From positions 868,001 through 932,000 of the forward strand of contig NC_015559.1 in the NCBI RefSeq assembly GCF_000214215.1: a stretch of 64,000 bases of DNA, in the 5' to 3' direction. This DNA comes from Marinomonas posidonica IVIA-Po-181. GTDB taxonomy: Bacteria; Pseudomonadota; Gammaproteobacteria; Pseudomonadales; Marinomonadaceae. Below, piece by piece: positions 27,526 through 35,835 of the stretch (the first letter of the stretch is position 1; each line of letters opens with the position of its first letter). The notes under the pieces were generated by a model. The model saw only the letters and a list, made by a program, of their open reading frames with translations. It searched no databases and was not told the DNA's origin. Both the position numbers and the translations under genes were made by a program.

Positions 27526-27532
27526 GTTGCTC

Positions 27533-27967
27533 ATGAAAAAATCTCATCGGATGCAAATATTGGTCGACCTTGCCAAGCGTAAAGAAGACTCTGTGGCGCA
27601 GCAATTGGCAAGAGATAAAGCCAAAGTGCTGCACGACGTGCAGAAACTGGCAGAACTTAAAGAATATGCTCAGCAATATGAGTCTGAGCGGAATTTGCTA
27701 GGCCTAAGCCCGTACCTAACAACCAATTATCAGCACTTTGTGGATCGGGTTCAGCAGGCCATTGCGCAGCAAGAGGCGGCGGTTGGACGGGCGGAGCAAC
27801 AAGCAGACATGAGTATGCGACTGTGGCTGCAAGCTCGATCTAAAACAAAGAGTATGGATGTGCTAAAAGAAAAAAATATAAAAATTGAGCAAAGCATCGA
27901 AGAGAAAAAAGAGCAGCGTCAAAGTGATGAATTCGCCATGCGGCGTTTTTTTGATGCAAACCGATAG
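27533..27967 (+). CDS. fliJ: Flagellar export chaperone FliJ
   Basis: A 144-residue, almost fully alpha-helical coiled-coil protein, the gamma-subunit-like stalk in the FliI ring and a general chaperone of the exporter. Order after fliI, length and heptad pattern support FliJ; sequence identity in this family is low. ATG 27533 is preferred over TTG 27527, which lies inside the ribosome site. Its translation may be limited by the hairpin just upstream. Confidence 0.87.
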   Translation: MKKSHRMQILVDLAKRKEDSVAQQLARDKAKVLHDVQKLAELKEYAQQYESERNLLGLSPYLTTNYQHFVDRVQQAIAQQEAAVGRAEQQADMSMRLWLQARSKTKSMDVLKEKNIKIEQSIEEKKEQRQSDEFAMRRFFDANR

Positions 27968-28012: not shown

Positions 28013-29914
28013 ATGTCAGAACGTGATTTAGGGAAAGTAGATGCTTCCTTCCCTATGGTTGACATTGAAAGTGCTGTTGTAAGTTATGCCATCACACCTC
28101 GCTCTTCTTTATTGTCTTTGCAGTTGGCTTTGGAAGCTTTTGCTTTGAATGTAACAGACATTAATCTGCCTGTATTTCATCAGCGTCTTACCTCTCTTCA
28201 GTGCCTAGTGGCGCAACTAATCACTTCAGGTTCTCCTTATCGATTTGATTGTCAGCAGGTTATGTTGACGGCAAGCGATGCCTTATTTCAACTTACTATG
28301 GCCATGCCATTAGGCCGGGATTATTTACAAGCCCAGAGTCGTGTATTGTCTGAACATAACCCTTGTTGGCAACAACTTAATAATCTTCTATCTCAAGTTG
28401 AATTAGTTGCTGAAAAATATCGATTTGAAGGGCGAATAACGTCTTCGTCACAAACGGCGATAGAGCCATTGCTACGAGCTTTGTCGGAGTTTGGTCAGGT
28501 GGCTTTTCAGGTGGAGAGGATGGAAGCGGAAGGTTTGATTGGCGTGTTTTATTTGGAATCCATTCAAACGATAGAGGGATTGAATGAACGATTCCCGCAA
28601 TTAATCTGGCGACGACTTGAATCTTATCATGTTGAAAAGCCTGAAGCCCCTTCTTCAGCCTTGGTAAACGACTCTTTGTCTCGTATTGATGGGCAGGCGA
28701 AGCAATTAATGATGTCTGGTTTTCTGTCTTGGTTTCAGCCAAAAAAATTGTCTTATGCAGAGCGTGATCGACTTTTAAATCGTTATGAAATCAGCATGAA
28801 AGAGGCTTTTTATCAGCCTTTTGCGAATTGTTTTGATGTTGATGGGGGGCATTATGACGACATCAAAGAGGCGCATAGATTTGTTCCCTTTGAGAGTGGC
28901 GAGAAAGCGACTTTGTCCGATGGTGGGCAAGCGTATCCGCTTCGTCTTCTAGGTCGATATTATGCTGTGGTCTCAGACTCGAGTGATGAGCAGTCGCAAG
29001 CGCCTTATATTAGTTCATGCATGGGAGACGATGTATTACCAAGTTCACTTTATCAAATTGACTATTTATCGCATTTCTACGTGTTTGACCAGCAAGAAAG
29101 TTTTCTACACAAAGTAGATTGGCATGAATTGGTGTGGCGTGATGGTGTCGCGTATGTTGAGTTTGCAGTGAATCAAGAAGCTAGATTGGTCTTATCCTTG
29201 AAGGTATTTTCTAAGCCACCAGAAGAGGCCTGTTTGGTATTTGATCAGGTAGAGAAACAGGATGTTCTCATTGTTACTGTGGCGGGGAGGCATGTCGCGA
29301 TTCCTTTTTGCTCTGTTCGTCGCCTAGAGGCGTTTCCTTTGTTGGTTAATCATGAGATTCAGGGTGTAAAAAATATTTGGCAGGATAAATTTGGTCAATT
29401 ATTACTTGAACCTTGGTTAAATGCTTTTGAGATCAATCAGAAAAAGTTGCAAAAAATAAGGACCGAAGCGGTTTCGGGTACTGTTAAGAAGGGGTATTAT
29501 TTGGGAAGAAGCCAAAAGGCTTGCCTAATAGTATCAGCAGAGCTGGTGGCGGATGTGATTGCAAATCAAACGCCGACTTCCTTCTTCTTTGTTGATGATT
29601 TAGGGCGAGAAGAACGGTCTTTTTTGTCGAATCAGAATCAATGCATTGAACTGATTACCATGAATGCATTAGAGTCAGGGTTTAGAGAAACAAACTCTCG
29701 TCTCGATTTTTCTGTTATTCTTGAAGCTGACGGCTTATCAGTTGCATTGCAGTTTGCTTCTTTCGACTGGTACGAAGAGCCGCCATCACTTGAGCTAAGG
29801 AGTGGCCGCGAGCTTAGTAACGACCTAGAACATGAAGATCTTGTTGTACTAGATAAAAAAAACTATTTGTCTTTTGTCGCTGATCATTTGTCATCAGCGA
29901 CAGCTTGTAAGTGA
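28013..29914 (+). CDS. Unrecognised 633-residue soluble protein in the flagellar operon
   Basis: I do not recognise this protein. There is no signal peptide or membrane segment. Residues about 20-260 are mostly helical (for example FHQRLTSLQCLVAQLI). Residues 417-475 (DVLIVTVAGRHVAIPF, then IQGVKNIWQDKFGQLLLEPW) recall one half of a CheW-like fold, in which a VGG/AIP strand pair precedes a VRG-IxxLRG-type loop; the match is weak. No histidine-kinase, Hpt or receiver motif is seen. It sits 45 bp after fliJ and 9 bp before a receptor-like membrane protein, followed by STAS and PP2C regulators, so a signalling or coupling role is inferred from position only. Confidence 0.6.
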   Translation: MSERDLGKVDASFPMVDIESAVVSYAITPRSSLLSLQLALEAFALNVTDINLPVFHQRLTSLQCLVAQLITSGSPYRFDCQQVMLTASDALFQLTMAMPLGRDYLQAQSRVLSEHNPCWQQLNNLLSQVELVAEKYRFEGRITSSSQTAIEPLLRALSEFGQVAFQVERMEAEGLIGVFYLESIQTIEGLNERFPQLIWRRLESYHVEKPEAPSSALVNDSLSRIDGQAKQLMMSGFLSWFQPKKLSYAERDRLLNRYEISMKEAFYQPFANCFDVDGGHYDDIKEAHRFVPFESGEKATLSDGGQAYPLRLLGRYYAVVSDSSDEQSQAPYISSCMGDDVLPSSLYQIDYLSHFYVFDQQESFLHKVDWHELVWRDGVAYVEFAVNQEARLVLSLKVFSKPPEEACLVFDQVEKQDVLIVTVAGRHVAIPFCSVRRLEAFPLLVNHEIQGVKNIWQDKFGQLLLEPWLNAFEINQKKLQKIRTEAVSGTVKKGYYLGRSQKACLIVSAELVADVIANQTPTSFFFVDDLGREERSFLSNQNQCIELITMNALESGFRETNSRLDFSVILEADGLSVALQFASFDWYEEPPSLELRSGRELSNDLEHEDLVVLDKKNYLSFVADHLSSATACK

Positions 29915-29923
29915 TTATTAACT

Positions 29924-31801
29924 ATGAATACATTGCATTCACCGTTTGGCGCACCGCGAAAAGAATTAATTAATGGGCTGCATAAAACAGTTGTTATTTT
30001 ACTGTTTTTTTTGCTGTTGGCTTTTGCTGGTCTGTATTATTTGGTGAATACCAATTTACAGCAACAAAATGCAAAGCAAGAGCAGCTGACTGAATTGTTA
30101 GGGTTAGTGCACAGTGCTGAAGAGCATTGGTTAGAGTGGTTGTTAGTAGAAGATCTTAAAGCCATTGATGGCAATTTGAATACCTCGCCTGCAAGTCATT
30201 TCCATCAAATATTGACTAGTGAATATAAACTAATTCAAGACCAGCTTGTTGGTTTTGACGATGTTCAAGAGGCTGATATATCTGGTGCAATGGCGTTGTT
30301 AATCGCGTTTTCAGGTCGAGAATTAGACACTTATCCTCTATCCAACCAAGAGCGTATTCAGGCTTATCAAGAATTTGAAAAATTAGAGTCGTTGGGTGAT
30401 CGCTTAATGCAAATCAGTGTGGCACTCGATTATCAGCGTGAATTGTTTGTTGGTCGAATGGTTTGGGCTCCTGTTGGTTTGTTTGTGGTGATCGTGCTTG
30501 TGGTGATCGTACTCGCGGCTCGTTTAAATCGTCAGCTGACATCTGGCTTTGCGACCATTCATCATGTCATAGATCACAGAAAACATGGTCATGCTTCTGT
30601 GTTACCAGAACGCCCACTGGTTGATGAATTAACGGATTTAAGCCATTTAATTGATCATGAAATTTCTTCCCGTGATATGGATATTCGTCAGCAGCTAGGT
30701 CGCTTGTCATTAATTGATGAGGCGATGTCTGTCATTGAATTGCCATTTTTTATGGTGAATGAAGAGCGAGACATTGTTTGGCAAACTCAGGGCGCTGAGC
30801 GACTATGGAATAAAAACTCTCAGTTTTTTGAGTCTATGTTTGGCATCGATCCGGGATTGGATTCACCTGTTGGAGAACAGGTGTCGGAATCCATTTTATT
30901 GTCTGATGAAGCGTTAAGGCTGTCTCTGTCCGATGGCGTATACGAATTGACGGTAAGGCAATTTAAAGTACAAGGTGAAGAGTCTAGTATGCGTTATCTG
31001 ATACAGGTTCAACACAAATCTGAAACGGCTGAGTTTGATGTTTTGTACAATAGTTTGAAGCTCATGTCGAAGGATGTATGGGATGCGCCGATCCGTCTCT
31101 TGCGTGAGAATTCACCTTATGCGATTTTTGCGCATTCACTTGAAGAGATTCGGGTGAAAGTAGCAGATGTTATTCGTGCAAGTAATAAGTTCGTGATGAC
31201 TACAGATCAGGCCGGAAAGATTACTAAATTACAACAAATAGCATCCCTTATTGACGCAAAAACAGACCACAATGATTCTGAGGTAGAAAGGCCTTTGCCT
31301 GTTGTATCTGTACCCGTACCAGAGTTAAGTGTTCACCAAGTGATGGATCTTTCGGATCAAATTCAAGATTCTCTGCTGTTAGGGTATGAGATGGTTATCC
31401 AGCGTTTATTGTTGGTTGAAAAGGATTTGTCATCAAATGTTATTCTTTTGGAGAGTGTGAGTCGTTGTCTGAATGAAGTCAGAGCGGGCGTATTATCCAG
31501 TCTGGCGGCTACCGAAGGGGAGAGTGACGCAATTCGTCACCGTTTTGCAGTTGACCTTGACCATGACATAAGTGAGGTTCAGGGGCAGGTGCAAGAAATG
31601 TCCTCTTTGATTGGAACTACTTTATCTTTGCTCGAATCAGATCGAAGTGTTGGAAACGCCAGACTAATGAGAGTTCGGGAAACAGTTGAAGACATAGTTA
31701 AGCGAATTGAAATAATAACGACCGAAACATCGGCTGAATTGGAAGATAAAAGCCAAAAGTCAGTCGATGATGATTTAGATGAAGAATGGGAAGAATGGTA
31801 G
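29924..31801 (+). CDS. Receptor-like membrane protein without a chemoreceptor hairpin
   Basis: A 625-residue protein with TM1 at about 24-43, a 130-residue periplasmic part, TM2 at about 180-203, a HAMP-like linker (about 203-250) and a PAS-like segment (VIELPFFMVNEERDIVW). A long helical C-terminal region (about 460-610) follows. The plan is that of a chemoreceptor, but the highly conserved signalling tip (as in [11 protein letters not shown]) is absent. The last five residues, EWEEW, fit the x-W-x-x-aromatic pentapeptide pattern that tethers CheR or CheB in some receptors. Gaps to its neighbours are 9 and 30 bp. Ligand and partner are unknown. Confidence 0.6.
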   Translation: MNTLHSPFGAPRKELINGLHKTVVILLFFLLLAFAGLYYLVNTNLQQQNAKQEQLTELLGLVHSAEEHWLEWLLVEDLKAIDGNLNTSPASHFHQILTSEYKLIQDQLVGFDDVQEADISGAMALLIAFSGRELDTYPLSNQERIQAYQEFEKLESLGDRLMQISVALDYQRELFVGRMVWAPVGLFVVIVLVVIVLAARLNRQLTSGFATIHHVIDHRKHGHASVLPERPLVDELTDLSHLIDHEISSRDMDIRQQLGRLSLIDEAMSVIELPFFMVNEERDIVWQTQGAERLWNKNSQFFESMFGIDPGLDSPVGEQVSESILLSDEALRLSLSDGVYELTVRQFKVQGEESSMRYLIQVQHKSETAEFDVLYNSLKLMSKDVWDAPIRLLRENSPYAIFAHSLEEIRVKVADVIRASNKFVMTTDQAGKITKLQQIASLIDAKTDHNDSEVERPLPVVSVPVPELSVHQVMDLSDQIQDSLLLGYEMVIQRLLLVEKDLSSNVILLESVSRCLNEVRAGVLSSLAATEGESDAIRHRFAVDLDHDISEVQGQVQEMSSLIGTTLSLLESDRSVGNARLMRVRETVEDIVKRIEIITTETSAELEDKSQKSVDDDLDEEWEEW

Positions 31802-31831
31802 TGCTTTTCATTGCGGCTTGTGAGGTGTTCA

Positions 31832-32134
31832 GTGGTTGAGAGCTCTTTTGATGATAAAACAGAATGCCTGACGATTTCTATCGATGGACGTTTTGATTAT
31901 AGCTGTCACAAGCTGTTCAAAGAGGCTTTTGTTTCAGTAAATAAGGCTGTTGCATACGAGATTGATTTGTCTCGTGTCACCTATTTGGACAGCTCTGCTT
32001 TAGGGATGCTGTTACTGCTAAGAGATCACGCTGGTGGTGAAAAAGCGAATGTACATTTAAAGAAGCCGAATGGCGCAGTATTGGATATTCTTAAAATTGC
32101 TAACTTCCATCGACTTTTTGAAATCGAAGAGTAG
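31832..32134 (+). CDS. STAS-domain anti-sigma factor antagonist, HsbA-like
   Basis: A 100-residue STAS protein with the hallmark DLSRVTYLDSSALGML; S54, after the aspartate, is the expected phosphorylation site. In Pseudomonas the analogous HsbA is switched by phosphorylation through HsbR and then acts on FlgM or a diguanylate cyclase. GTG 31832 is chosen because GAGG lies about 6 nt upstream and the length then fits the family; TTG 31811 would add seven residues. The next gene, 5 bp downstream, encodes the matching phosphatase/kinase. Confidence 0.8.
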   Translation: MVESSFDDKTECLTISIDGRFDYSCHKLFKEAFVSVNKAVAYEIDLSRVTYLDSSALGMLLLLRDHAGGEKANVHLKKPNGAVLDILKIANFHRLFEIEE

Positions 32135-32139
32135 ATTGT

Positions 32140-33849
32140 ATGGAACAAATCCTGAATATCCTTATCGCGGATGATAACCCATCTGACCGAATCTTATTGA
32201 AAGCGATTCTGAGTCAGTTTGGTCACAATGTTATTTCAGCTGTCGATGGTCAGGATGCAGTAGAAAAGTTTGACCCTGACACCATTCAATTAGTTTGTCT
32301 GGATGTTAAAATGCCGCGCAAAGATGGTTGGGAGGCGGCTTTGGAAATTCAGCGTGCAGCTGGAGATCTGTTTGTTCCTATTATTTTCCTTTCTGGTGTG
32401 GCGGATCCTATCGCTTTGTCCAACTGCTTGCGCATCGGTGGCACTGATTTCATCTCTAAACCCTACAGTCCTGCGTTAATTACGGCAAAGTTAAATGCCA
32501 TTGTGCGCCTTCTAGTGATGCAAAAAACATTGGAAGAGCAAAGGGATGCTATGTCCCTTTATAATGAACAGTTGGTGCATGATCAGAATGTCGCTAAAGT
32601 TGTTTATGAAAACATTACTCACTCCAATTGTTTAAAAGATCCTGCCCTATCAACTGTTCACTATGGCACTCACACATTTAATGGTGATGTTATTTTGGCT
32701 GCTTATAAGCCAAATGGTGGAATGCATTTGCTATTGGGAGATTTTACAGGGCATGGTTTGTCGGCGGCGATTGGTGCCTTGCCATTGGCGGATATCTTCT
32801 TTGATTGGACTAAAAAAGGCTTTTTGATGCGGCAAATTATTCCTGAAATTAATGCCAGATTAAAAAGTATCTTGCCAGCAAATATGTTTTGTAGTGCGGC
32901 GTTTATTGATATTAAAGTTAATAATAAAAGCATTGATATTTGGAACGGCGGCTTGCCTGATTTGTTATTTTTTTCTCAACAATCCAAAGTGCCAGTGCGT
33001 TTTGAATCAAAAAATTTACCTCTTGGTATCTTGCCTCCAGATGTTTTTGAGTGCCAAATTGATCCTGTGACCTTTGTGCCAGGTAACCGTCTTGTGGTGT
33101 TTTCCGATGGTGTTTATGAGGCGCAAGATAAGTCTGGCGCTATGTTTTGTCATTCCGTTTTGAATCCTTTGTATGAGGGTGAGATAGCAGATGATCAAGC
33201 ATTAGATTGGATGGTTGAGCAGCTGACTCAAGAGGGGGTGCTTGAAAACCCACATGATGATATTTCGTGTTTGTCAATTCGTTTGGATAGCAATATTGGC
33301 ATTGAGTCCCATGATCATGGCGTGCCTACCAGTCATCATGAAGCACCGGCAGACTTTTCATTTGAATATGTACTTAATGCTGATTCATTGCGTAATACGG
33401 ATCCTTTACCGTACGTGTTGCAAATTATCACGACAGTACCTGGGTTGAGTAGTTTTTCCAGTCAAGTTTTTATGATCTTATCTGAGCTGTATTCCAATGC
33501 GCTAGAGCATGGTGTGCTCGGTCTTAAATCGGATAAGAAGAGTTCCAGCGATGGTTTTTCTCAATATTACGATGAGCGAGAGCAAAGGCTGGCTGCACTT
33601 AAAGACGGTTTTGTTAAAATTTCTGTGAAGGTTACCTCTAGCGATAATGAACGGGTGTTGGCTTTGTACGTTGAAGATAGCGGCTCTGGGTTTGATTATC
33701 AGAATGTTAACTTTGACATGTCGAGCAGTGAACTTCTTTATAATCGGGGTTTGGCGCTATTGGATCAGTTGTGCCATAAGCTTGAGTTTTGTAAAGGCGG
33801 GCGTGGTGTAACAGCCTATTATCACTGGCAAGTAGGTCAAGACGACTAG
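32140..33849 (+). CDS. Receiver/PP2C phosphatase/HATPase regulator, HsbR-like
   Basis: A 569-residue three-domain protein: receiver (phospho-acceptor D55 in CLDVKMPRKDG), a SpoIIE/PP2C serine phosphatase (GDFTGHG, FSDGVYEA, DDISCLSIR) and a C-terminal anti-sigma-type ATPase domain (LSELYSNALEHG as N box, VEDSGSGF). The order and length match HsbR of Pseudomonas, which phosphorylates and dephosphorylates the STAS partner HsbA. Normally the receiver is fed by the Hpt protein HptB; no Hpt gene lies here. fliK follows 45 bp later. Confidence 0.85.
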   Translation: MEQILNILIADDNPSDRILLKAILSQFGHNVISAVDGQDAVEKFDPDTIQLVCLDVKMPRKDGWEAALEIQRAAGDLFVPIIFLSGVADPIALSNCLRIGGTDFISKPYSPALITAKLNAIVRLLVMQKTLEEQRDAMSLYNEQLVHDQNVAKVVYENITHSNCLKDPALSTVHYGTHTFNGDVILAAYKPNGGMHLLLGDFTGHGLSAAIGALPLADIFFDWTKKGFLMRQIIPEINARLKSILPANMFCSAAFIDIKVNNKSIDIWNGGLPDLLFFSQQSKVPVRFESKNLPLGILPPDVFECQIDPVTFVPGNRLVVFSDGVYEAQDKSGAMFCHSVLNPLYEGEIADDQALDWMVEQLTQEGVLENPHDDISCLSIRLDSNIGIESHDHGVPTSHHEAPADFSFEYVLNADSLRNTDPLPYVLQIITTVPGLSSFSSQVFMILSELYSNALEHGVLGLKSDKKSSSDGFSQYYDEREQRLAALKDGFVKISVKVTSSDNERVLALYVEDSGSGFDYQNVNFDMSSSELLYNRGLALLDQLCHKLEFCKGGRGVTAYYHWQVGQDD

Positions 33850-33894
33850 GTTGGCCTTGCAATTGCATAGCCCTTCATATCTTTGGAGGATATT

Positions 33895-35835
33895 ATGCGA
33901 ACAGATTCTAATACCCTATTACCGATTGCTTCCGCTTCAACGGCCAAAAAATCGTCGATGGTCAGAGCGCCAGAAAAACAAGGTGCGGCTTTTTCGGAGG
34001 ATTTTAACCGGGCAAAAGACGTTATATCGAGTAACAAACGCGACGACAAGCCCAGAGTCGTCAGCACTGATGAACCGCGTCAATCCTCCGCAATATCAGA
34101 TAAATCAAGTCATCCCAGTACAAAAGATGACAGCATTAATCCGTCTGAAAAAGAATCTACCGTTGCTTCGAAAACGGTTCCGTCTCCTGTTCAGAGTAAG
34201 GCAGATGAGACGCATTCGGTTCATTCAAAATCAGATAATGCAGAGGCTGAAAAAGGGGCGCAGTCGGTTGTATCTAATTCAAATCAAGTTGATGAAAGCG
34301 GCAAAAAATTGCAGTTGAGTGGCGAAGCTTCTCCTGAATCAAGTGATCTTGCCAATGGTGATAAGGCTATGTTGCTTGGTGGGCAGGTTGTTACAGCAAG
34401 TGCTGCGGTTGAAGCGTTGCAGAAATCACCAGAGCTTAATCAAAAGATGACTTTGTCAAATGATGGTGAGGTGGCTTCGGAGGTTGGTGCGAGCAAGACA
34501 GAGTTGCTAGAGACGGACGTTTCTTTAGATGATGTGGTTGTGGGAGATGAGCATGCATTGGCCAACAGTGTGCCCCGTCAGCAAGGCTTGATGGATGCCG
34601 GTCAAGTGGAAGGCTCATTATTAGATCCCTCGTCTGTTGTTCAGCCATCTGACGTTCAGTCTCTGCCTGGAATTAGCGCTTCTGCACATCAAGAACTTGG
34701 TCAAGCCGCTATTCAAGTTGATGGTTTGCCTATTGAAGGTTTGCCTAGTGGCCAAGTTGGTGGTGTATCTATTGAAGGTTTGCCTAGTGGCCAAGTTGAT
34801 GCTGTGCCTAATAGTCTGGTTAATGGTCAGGTTGCGGAAGCCTCGAAGCTTGACGGAATCGACTTAAAGAAAGTAAATGAGACAGGTGTTATTGCAATGG
34901 CCCCTGTCGCTGCGGCGGTTGCGACTGGAGTAAATCAGGCTGTGACTCAGGGGCAAGAGGTTGCAGGAAGTGATGAAGAATTATCTTGGGTACTTGATCA
35001 AATGAGTTCGACCCCGAGAAAAACATCAACTGATGGAGTCGTTACAGGCTTGTTGGCAGAGGCGCCGGAAGTTGAGCTGGTTAAGTCGGCTTCTCTTGCT
35101 GGTGCGGGTGCTGGATTGGCACTTGGGGTTACTGGTAAATTAAATGCGGATTCTACAGGTGGTTCAGCAACAGACTTATTGCAAGGAGCAGAGCTAACGA
35201 CAGATGATGTGATTGGAAATGAACCTATAGAACTTAGAAAGAAAGAGCATGAAGCCATGTTAGGTCGTATGGCTGGTAATGTGGATGCGAAGCTGGATGA
35301 GGTTGGTGGATTGAGCTCATCGTTCAATCAACAAATGGGCCGGGCGGCAGCTTCGTTGGGAGTCGCAGGTCAAGTGGTCAGTGCAAATCAGCCGTTGAAT
35401 ATGGCAATGAATGTACCGCCAGGGCATCCAAACTGGGCGGCTGAGATGGGGCAGAAAGTGGCTTGGGTGGCTAGAGAGGGTGGTCATACAGCACGCATTC
35501 GCTTGGATCCACCTGAGCTTGGGAGTTTGACAGTAAAAGTATCGGTGGATAGTGATTCTAATACACAGATAAACTTTGTCGCGGCAACAACACAGGCACG
35601 AGATTTATTAGAAGGGCAAATGGGGCGCTTGCGTGATATGTTAGCGCAACAGGGCATAGATTTAAGCCGTGCCGAAGTGGATGTGTCTCAACAAGACACT
35701 TCTGGTACTCAGAGAGATGCCCGTCAGACTGGGGTAGTGAATAATTCCGATGCCAGTGTGGAAGAAGAAACGGATGACGTTATGCCTGGAGTCATGTCTT
35801 ATGTCTCTGCTACAGGGGTGGATTTTTATGCCTAA
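33895..35835 (+). CDS. fliK: Flagellar hook-length control protein FliK
   Basis: Molecular ruler that sets hook length and switches export specificity. The 646-residue protein has a long, low-complexity N-terminal part rich in S, D, K and then V, G, Q, and a compact C-terminal Flg_hook domain (about 510-620) with RIRLDPPELGSLTVKV and LLEGQMGRLRDMLAQQGID. ATG 33895 has GGAGG 7 nt before it. A 13-codon tandem repeat lies in the ruler region. It stands just before fliLMNOPQR, as usual. Confidence 0.93.
   Translation: MRTDSNTLLPIASASTAKKSSMVRAPEKQGAAFSEDFNRAKDVISSNKRDDKPRVVSTDEPRQSSAISDKSSHPSTKDDSINPSEKESTVASKTVPSPVQSKADETHSVHSKSDNAEAEKGAQSVVSNSNQVDESGKKLQLSGEASPESSDLANGDKAMLLGGQVVTASAAVEALQKSPELNQKMTLSNDGEVASEVGASKTELLETDVSLDDVVVGDEHALANSVPRQQGLMDAGQVEGSLLDPSSVVQPSDVQSLPGISASAHQELGQAAIQVDGLPIEGLPSGQVGGVSIEGLPSGQVDAVPNSLVNGQVAEASKLDGIDLKKVNETGVIAMAPVAAAVATGVNQAVTQGQEVAGSDEELSWVLDQMSSTPRKTSTDGVVTGLLAEAPEVELVKSASLAGAGAGLALGVTGKLNADSTGGSATDLLQGAELTTDDVIGNEPIELRKKEHEAMLGRMAGNVDAKLDEVGGLSSSFNQQMGRAAASLGVAGQVVSANQPLNMAMNVPPGHPNWAAEMGQKVAWVAREGGHTARIRLDPPELGSLTVKVSVDSDSNTQINFVAATTQARDLLEGQMGRLRDMLAQQGIDLSRAEVDVSQQDTSGTQRDARQTGVVNNSDASVEEETDDVMPGVMSYVSATGVDFYA
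34732..34798 (+). repeat. 13-codon tandem repeat in fliK
   Basis: A 28-bp identical stretch at 34732-34759 recurs at 34771-34798, offset by 39 bp, so the frame is kept. It encodes IEGLPSGQV twice in the ruler region. Copy-number change here would alter FliK length by 13 residues a unit. Confidence 0.85.

Follow-up and report, generated by a model that had tools for sequence, protein, structure and literature searches.

How a sigma-factor partner switch may be steered when the phosphotransfer gene that serves it in Pseudomonas is gone from its locus is the question raised by a run of four genes in Marinomonas posidonica IVIA-Po-181. The genes lie at positions 28,013 to 33,849 of the window, the 64,000-nucleotide stretch of contig NC_015559.1 (positions 868,001 to 932,000) that was analyzed. 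Two of them encode the switch, and the two in front of it encode large proteins, here called P633 and P625, that the initial annotation left unrecognized, and for which there is indeed no usable Pfam or NCBIfam match. Comparison of structures and profiles shows that P633 is derived from the chemotaxis kinase CheA, retaining P1-, P2-, and P5-like domains and a second CheW-like domain while having lost the kinase domain (P4) and the phospho-histidine. The cassette is a variant of the che1-crsRA/HsbRA kind. Its genes are the following.

28013..29914, + strand: P633, kinase-less CheA-derived protein, 633 residues (open reading frame (ORF) call, structure and profile comparison)
29924..31801, + strand: P625, membrane receptor-like protein, 625 residues (AlphaFold2 model, Foldseek/VIA; transmembrane segments by eye)
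31811..32134, + strand: STAS protein, HsbA/CrsA type, 107 residues from a TTG start, DSSALG at residue 60 (Pfam and motifs)
32140..33849, + strand: receiver-PP2C-HATPase protein, HsbR/CrsR type, 569 residues (Pfam and motifs of all three domains)

A CheA Relative without a Kinase Domain

Sequence searches of both large proteins against Pfam, NCBIfam, and the PDB returned nothing convincing. At E values up to 1, NCBIfam matched neither protein, and the single Pfam match of P633 was to RecG_wedge (0.028, below its cut-off). The best Pfam value among 28 P633 homologues was 0.0054, in one member. Identity with the RecG wedge was rejected, as the match fell under the cut-off and was seen in one homologue, and viral structures gave no match to P633 at an E value of 0.001. 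With the P633 model as Foldseek query, the seven top PDB matches all come from CheA-containing entries (6s1k_A, 8.3e-6; 1b3q_A, 4.3e-5), and VIA places P1 at residues 5-131, P5 at 341-471, and CheW at 493-633. The domains assigned are as follows.

28025..28405, + strand: P1-like helical domain without a conserved phospho-histidine, P633 residues 5-131
28406..28633, + strand: P2-like beta-alpha-beta-beta-alpha-beta domain, residues 132-207 (model secondary structure and hhalign)
29033..29425, + strand: CheA P5-like domain, residues 341-471
29489..29902, + strand: second CheW-like domain, residues 493-630

Comparison of the P633 alignment with CheA and CheW by hhalign was not significant over the whole length, and it was the comparison domain by domain, against a deep CheA set made up of 21 of 30 fetched loci and eight from set A3, that rescued the assignment. 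The P1, P2, and P5 slices of the 28-sequence alignment each score highest with their own CheA domain and outscore all 40 column shuffles as well as the reversed profile, and none of 20 control slices reached P 0.0135 for P1, P2, or P5. For the P2-like slice against CheA P2, hhalign P is 0.013, a score reached by 0 of 40 shuffles. P1 and P5 are backed by both structure and profile, and P2 by profile and secondary structure, the three folds following one another in the order that they have in CheA. About 80 residues separate the P2-like part from the next beta-rich part. As for the P3 dimerization helices, residues 208-280 are mostly helical without a profile match, and the alignment to 1b3q_A starts at residue 216 with a root mean square deviation of 9.3.

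No HATPase (P4) match was found in the 28 homologues at E values up to 1, nor a conserved phospho-histidine in the P1-like domain, the best histidine column in residues 1-131 being occupied in 12 of 28. Because the P4 domain and a conserved phospho-histidine are both lacking, P633 is a CheA-derived scaffold and not a kinase.

A Receptor-like Membrane Protein

The model of P625 suggests a layout of transmembrane (TM) segment, four-helix periplasmic part, second TM segment, HAMP, PAS, and helical hairpin, parts of which are placed as follows.

30461..30709, + strand: TM2 and HAMP-like segment, P625 residues 180-262
30746..31015, + strand: PAS-like domain, residues 275-364 (Foldseek PAS matches, e.g. 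4hi4_A, E 4.8e-3, TMt 0.56)
31331..31750, + strand: antiparallel helical hairpin, residues 470-609

Such a TM-sensor-TM-HAMP front end is of the type found in methyl-accepting chemotaxis proteins (MCPs) but is not specific for them, since it is also typical of sensor kinases; the best Foldseek match of P625 is WalK. Pfam gave no match to P625 itself at E values up to 1, MCPsignal included. For 32 homologues, among 25 of 45 families listed, MCPsignal did not appear and the best E value was 0.0074, in one member. Whole-length hhalign against MCPs was not significant, and the domain-wise procedure that rescued CheA, here with an MCP set of 12 of 30, did not do so for MCP, the hairpin profile performing no better than its reversed counterpart; the fold is compatible but non-specific. 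P625 is modeled as a TM-helical-TM-HAMP-PAS receptor with a C-terminal hairpin, its descent from an MCP being unproven.

The Partner Switch

The STAS protein matches STAS_2 (8.4e-13), and its neighbor matches Response_reg (1e-19) and SpoIIE/PP2C (5e-30), with HATPase_c_2 (2.7e-4) under its cut-off and the HATPase motifs present. Along the latter protein lie LIADDN (8), LDVKMPR (54), SKPY (106), GDFTGHG (200), FSDGV (321), DDIS (373), ELYSNALEHG (449), and EDSGSGF (512), which, with the motif of the STAS protein, we take to be the active-site motifs of the receiver, PP2C, HATPase, and STAS domains. With a receiver-PP2C-HATPase protein beside a STAS protein and these motifs retained, the two genes are identified from their domain make-up as an HsbA-HsbR (CrsA-CrsR) partner switch.

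According to PMC5085249, HsbR of Pseudomonas, once phosphorylated by HptB, takes the phosphate off HsbA, which is then able to bind FlgM; without that signal phosphorylated HsbA binds HsbR and HsbD. PMC6482189 adds that RpoS is then released and that the HATPase part is the sigma-binding D3 domain of HsbR/CrsR. All 10 Marinomonas searched have both FlgM and RpoS, and RpoS would be as likely a target of the switch as FlgM/FliA.

Distribution within Marinomonas

The P633 profile matches 10 of 10 Marinomonas genomes and none of the remaining 234 from the host's order, and the P625 profile matches the same ten at full length and six other genomes only at TM2/HAMP (E 4e-9 to 2e-5). When single sequences served as queries, 20 of 35 Marinomonas genomes gave a match to P633 and 34 gave one to P625. 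The one genome without a P625 match, G021, is also without a close FliI (best 30% identity) and so probably lacks this flagellar locus; L253 and L286 are stretches from elsewhere in it. The searches made did not turn up both large proteins in unrelated contexts: the matches to P633 were confined to Marinomonas, and in the examined loci its gene lay between fliJ and fliK.

The proposal of a four-gene system stands in part. It was assessed in a table of 45 loci, 44 of them distinct by P625 and 31 of these 44 picked by HsbR rather than P625, with length thresholds of 480 residues for P633 and P625, 90 for STAS, and 540 for HsbR. All four genes are present at length in 33 of the 44 (in L065, P633 is cut at the contig start), but some loci lack P633 and some lack STAS, and P625, kept in 44 of 44, is the sole constant member. 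P633 is absent from L064, L066, L254, and L255 and split into two ORFs in L062, where a sequencing error is possible. STAS is broken in L067 and absent in L066, and L080 ends inside hsbR. In L247, L287, L291, and L292 HsbR is without PP2C and STAS is absent (the P633 of L287 is a 626-residue ORF with a weak match, 1.9e-5, that a second search missed), and in L255 only the HATPase part of HsbR is left. This outlasting of STAS and PP2C by the HATPase fits the sigma-binding role of D3. Among the 43 distinct loci that cover the gap, none holds an HptB-like ORF.

In L247 the Asp motif of the receiver is lost and P633 is retained; in L254 and L255 both receiver and P633 are gone. In these few cases retention of P633 tracks the presence of the receiver and not its Asp motif, a pattern that is suggestive only.

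Two side observations concern the reduced loci. The front of the HsbR relatives in L287, L291, and L292 is unrecognized by Pfam (receiver-like by eye), with the HATPase above its cut-off and no adjoining STAS gene. In L254 (4972-6840; genome G002), P625 is the only gene remaining between fliJ and fliK, which hints at a role of P625 independent of the partner switch.

Related Loci and the Closest Known Systems

An HsbR relative (E 1e-30) occurs in 57 of 115 genomes of the host's order, four of the 57 being Marinomonas; one locus each was taken from 40 of the other 53, several of them cut by contig ends. Relatives of cheA or cheB stand upstream of STAS-HsbR in 14 of these 40 loci (judged by eye), as in L121, where Pfam gives the order CheA, CheW, MCP, CheR, CheD, CheB, STAS, HsbR, Hpt. 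In eight of the 40, fliJ directly precedes STAS. A stand-alone ORF with an HptB-type motif is found in 36 of 40, and an HptB-like ORF follows HsbR in 10 of 10 loci among the matches listed. In related genera the corresponding spot can be occupied by an F7-type chemosensory operon followed by STAS-HsbR-HptB-fliK, as in che1-crsRA of Shewanella, and the Marinomonas locus, with its CheA relative, receptor, STAS, and HsbR, would represent a further step of reduction, a succession that we infer. This evolutionary reading is fairly firm.

In five loci from four genera (L122, L139, L125, L132, L127), STAS is directly preceded by a membrane protein whose MCP signature fades stepwise across the order, with MCPsignal at 4.7e-25, 1.7e-17, 1.2e-8, 1.3e-5, and 0.072. 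Like these proteins, P625 directly precedes STAS-HsbR, but it is without an MCPsignal match and has HAMP-PAS.

For a precedent the initial annotation pointed to the Pseudomonas region. The likeness holds for the STAS and HsbR architecture, and, as PMC5085249 reports, non-aeruginosa species share the flagellar region with fliK; the Marinomonas locus, however, is without HptB and has two large genes in front instead. The nearest precedent is rather the class F7 che1 locus of Shewanella, in which, according to PMC9855816, the same che genes are joined to crsR and crsA, so that in S. oneidensis the chemosensory genes, the receptors, and the genes for the STAS and receiver/anti-sigma proteins are transcribed as a single unit; there the link from Che1 to RpoS is called possible or probable. 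Unlike that locus, the one in the window has no cheY, cheW, cheR, cheD, or cheB, its CheA relative has no kinase domain, and the run sits between fliJ and fliK. Among structural matches of P633, the best is P1 of CheA3 from Rhodobacter sphaeroides. CheA3, too, is a CheA relative that combines P1 and P5 without a functional kinase, but according to PMC10782961 it keeps its phospho-histidine and a degenerate kinase domain, neither of which P633 has, and acts with a partner, CheA4. The same 2023 survey of CheA architectures reports that all the CheA homologues it covers have the kinase (HATPase, P4) domain. A literature search yielded, among the papers listed, nothing recognized as this cassette, although the locus may be mentioned in a survey of partner switches from 2018 (doi 10.1111/1758-2229.12620); STAS, anti-sigma, and fliK do not occur in the text of a Halomonas chemosensory paper (PMC5907407).

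Proposed Steering of HsbR by Docking and Its Alternatives

Because HptB is gone from the locus and P633 lacks a kinase domain, it is proposed that P625 controls HsbR through the docking of P633. P625 would be the receptor, and its C-terminal hairpin would bind P633 at the P5/CheW-like domains; P633 in turn would dock with its P1/P2-like part on the receiver-like domain of HsbR, as P1/P2 of CheA do on CheY. Depending on the state of the receptor, HsbR would act as a kinase, as a phosphatase, or as a sigma-binding protein, and this would set the phosphorylation of HsbA and thereby whether FliA (by way of FlgM) or RpoS is set free. Docking would take the place of phosphate, of which HptB is the source in Pseudomonas and a working CheA possibly the source in a che1-type locus. 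The earlier suggestion that a membrane signal passes through both large proteins to the switch keeps its plausibility, since a CheA/CheW-like P633 and an adjoining receptor-like protein stand beside HsbA/HsbR; what changes is the nature of P633, now a kinase-less CheA derivative. Docking without phosphate also fits the patterns of L247, L254, and L255.

That the cassette is a reduced, kinase-less F7-type che1-crsRA locus whose receptor and CheA relative act on HsbR by docking is held tentatively, at a little short of an even chance, and the stricter claim, that in a chemoreceptor-type signaling line without its kinase a membrane receptor and a CheA derivative lacking both ATPase and phospho-histidine steer the partner switch through protein docking and nothing else, is doubtful. 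If true, a kinase-less CheA relative under selection throughout a genus whose relatives can have the F7 che operon would mean that the scaffold of an array can find new use as a coupler independent of phosphorylation, and it would offer a natural experiment on the steering of HsbR/CrsR switches.

A rather unlikely alternative is that phosphate, coming from a relocated Hpt or the chemotaxis CheA, still drives HsbR, with P633 and P625 limited to a tuning role such as that of a decoy competing for the receiver. The HsbR of the window does retain LIADDN, LDVKMPR, and SKPY, and stand-alone Hpts in G000 (the genome containing the window), G012, and G030 match an HptB profile at 2e-17 to 1.3e-16. This match is nevertheless non-specific, because Hpt parts of larger proteins score better (L194, 1.6e-20); G027 has no Hpt in open frames under 390 residues yet keeps all four genes (L246); and the Hpt of G000 follows a 605-residue gene, so that it may serve another relay.

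Two Hpt-bearing proteins may be recorded here. The stand-alone Hpt at L249 (2198-2539; 113 residues, PF01627 3.6e-10), directly after the 605-residue gene, is possibly a relocated HptB or part of another phosphorelay. At L248 (1487-2596; G000 C1:1245500-1250500) lies a 369-residue protein with a CheA-P1-like Hpt (HSMKG); counterparts of this protein occur in each of the four complete Marinomonas genomes searched (L197, L209, L210, L211).

It is unlikely that P633 serves instead as a scaffold of the main chemotaxis array, an adaptor or spacer like an extra CheW, with P625 as another array receptor and the adjacency to STAS/HsbR merely historical. Array domains of the P5- and CheW-like kinds are indeed retained in P633, G000 contains 35 matches to MCPsignal and a single one to H-kinase_dim, that of the chemotaxis CheA, and P625 persists without STAS/HsbR in L254. 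Against this, P625 has no recognizable MCP signaling tip, the P1/P2-like parts still present in P633 would be superfluous in an adaptor, and the genes are linked to a full HsbR in most loci.

Gene Layout and Selection

As the initial annotation stated, the four ORFs form one run between fliJ and fliK. All four are on the + strand, and the flanks are these.

27527-27967: fliJ, before P633 (PF02050 8.5e-23)
33883-35835: fliK, after HsbR (PF02120 2.6e-22)

From fliJ through to fliK the gaps are 45, 9, 9, 5, and 33 nucleotides. Of the gaps given earlier (9, 30, and 5), the 9 and the 5 hold, whereas that before STAS shrinks from 30 to 9 with the TTG start at 31811; the larger figure fits a start placed downstream of that TTG.

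P633 and P625 are under purifying selection. The ratio of nonsynonymous to synonymous substitution (dN/dS), for hand-chosen and non-independent pairs, is 0.16-0.31 for P633 (10 pairs, one further pair being saturated), 0.07-0.13 for P625 (11 pairs), and 0.02-0.05 for HsbR (10 pairs). Selection and the homologues across Marinomonas argue that the genes are not chance ORFs. That the cassette is decaying, P633 and P625 being remnants of a chemosensory operon on its way out, is very unlikely: P633 is the fastest-changing member and is split or absent in the loci named above, but its dN/dS is far under 1, the long ORFs persist across most of the genus, and P625 is retained even in the loci chosen by HsbR.

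A pattern scan gave 13 promoter-like sites against 15.5 expected and 13 terminator-like sites against 7.2 expected; the three gaps separating the four genes hold no terminator-like site on the + strand. In named Marinomonas records (L052-L082), HsbR is up to 96% identical and the neighbors are the same.
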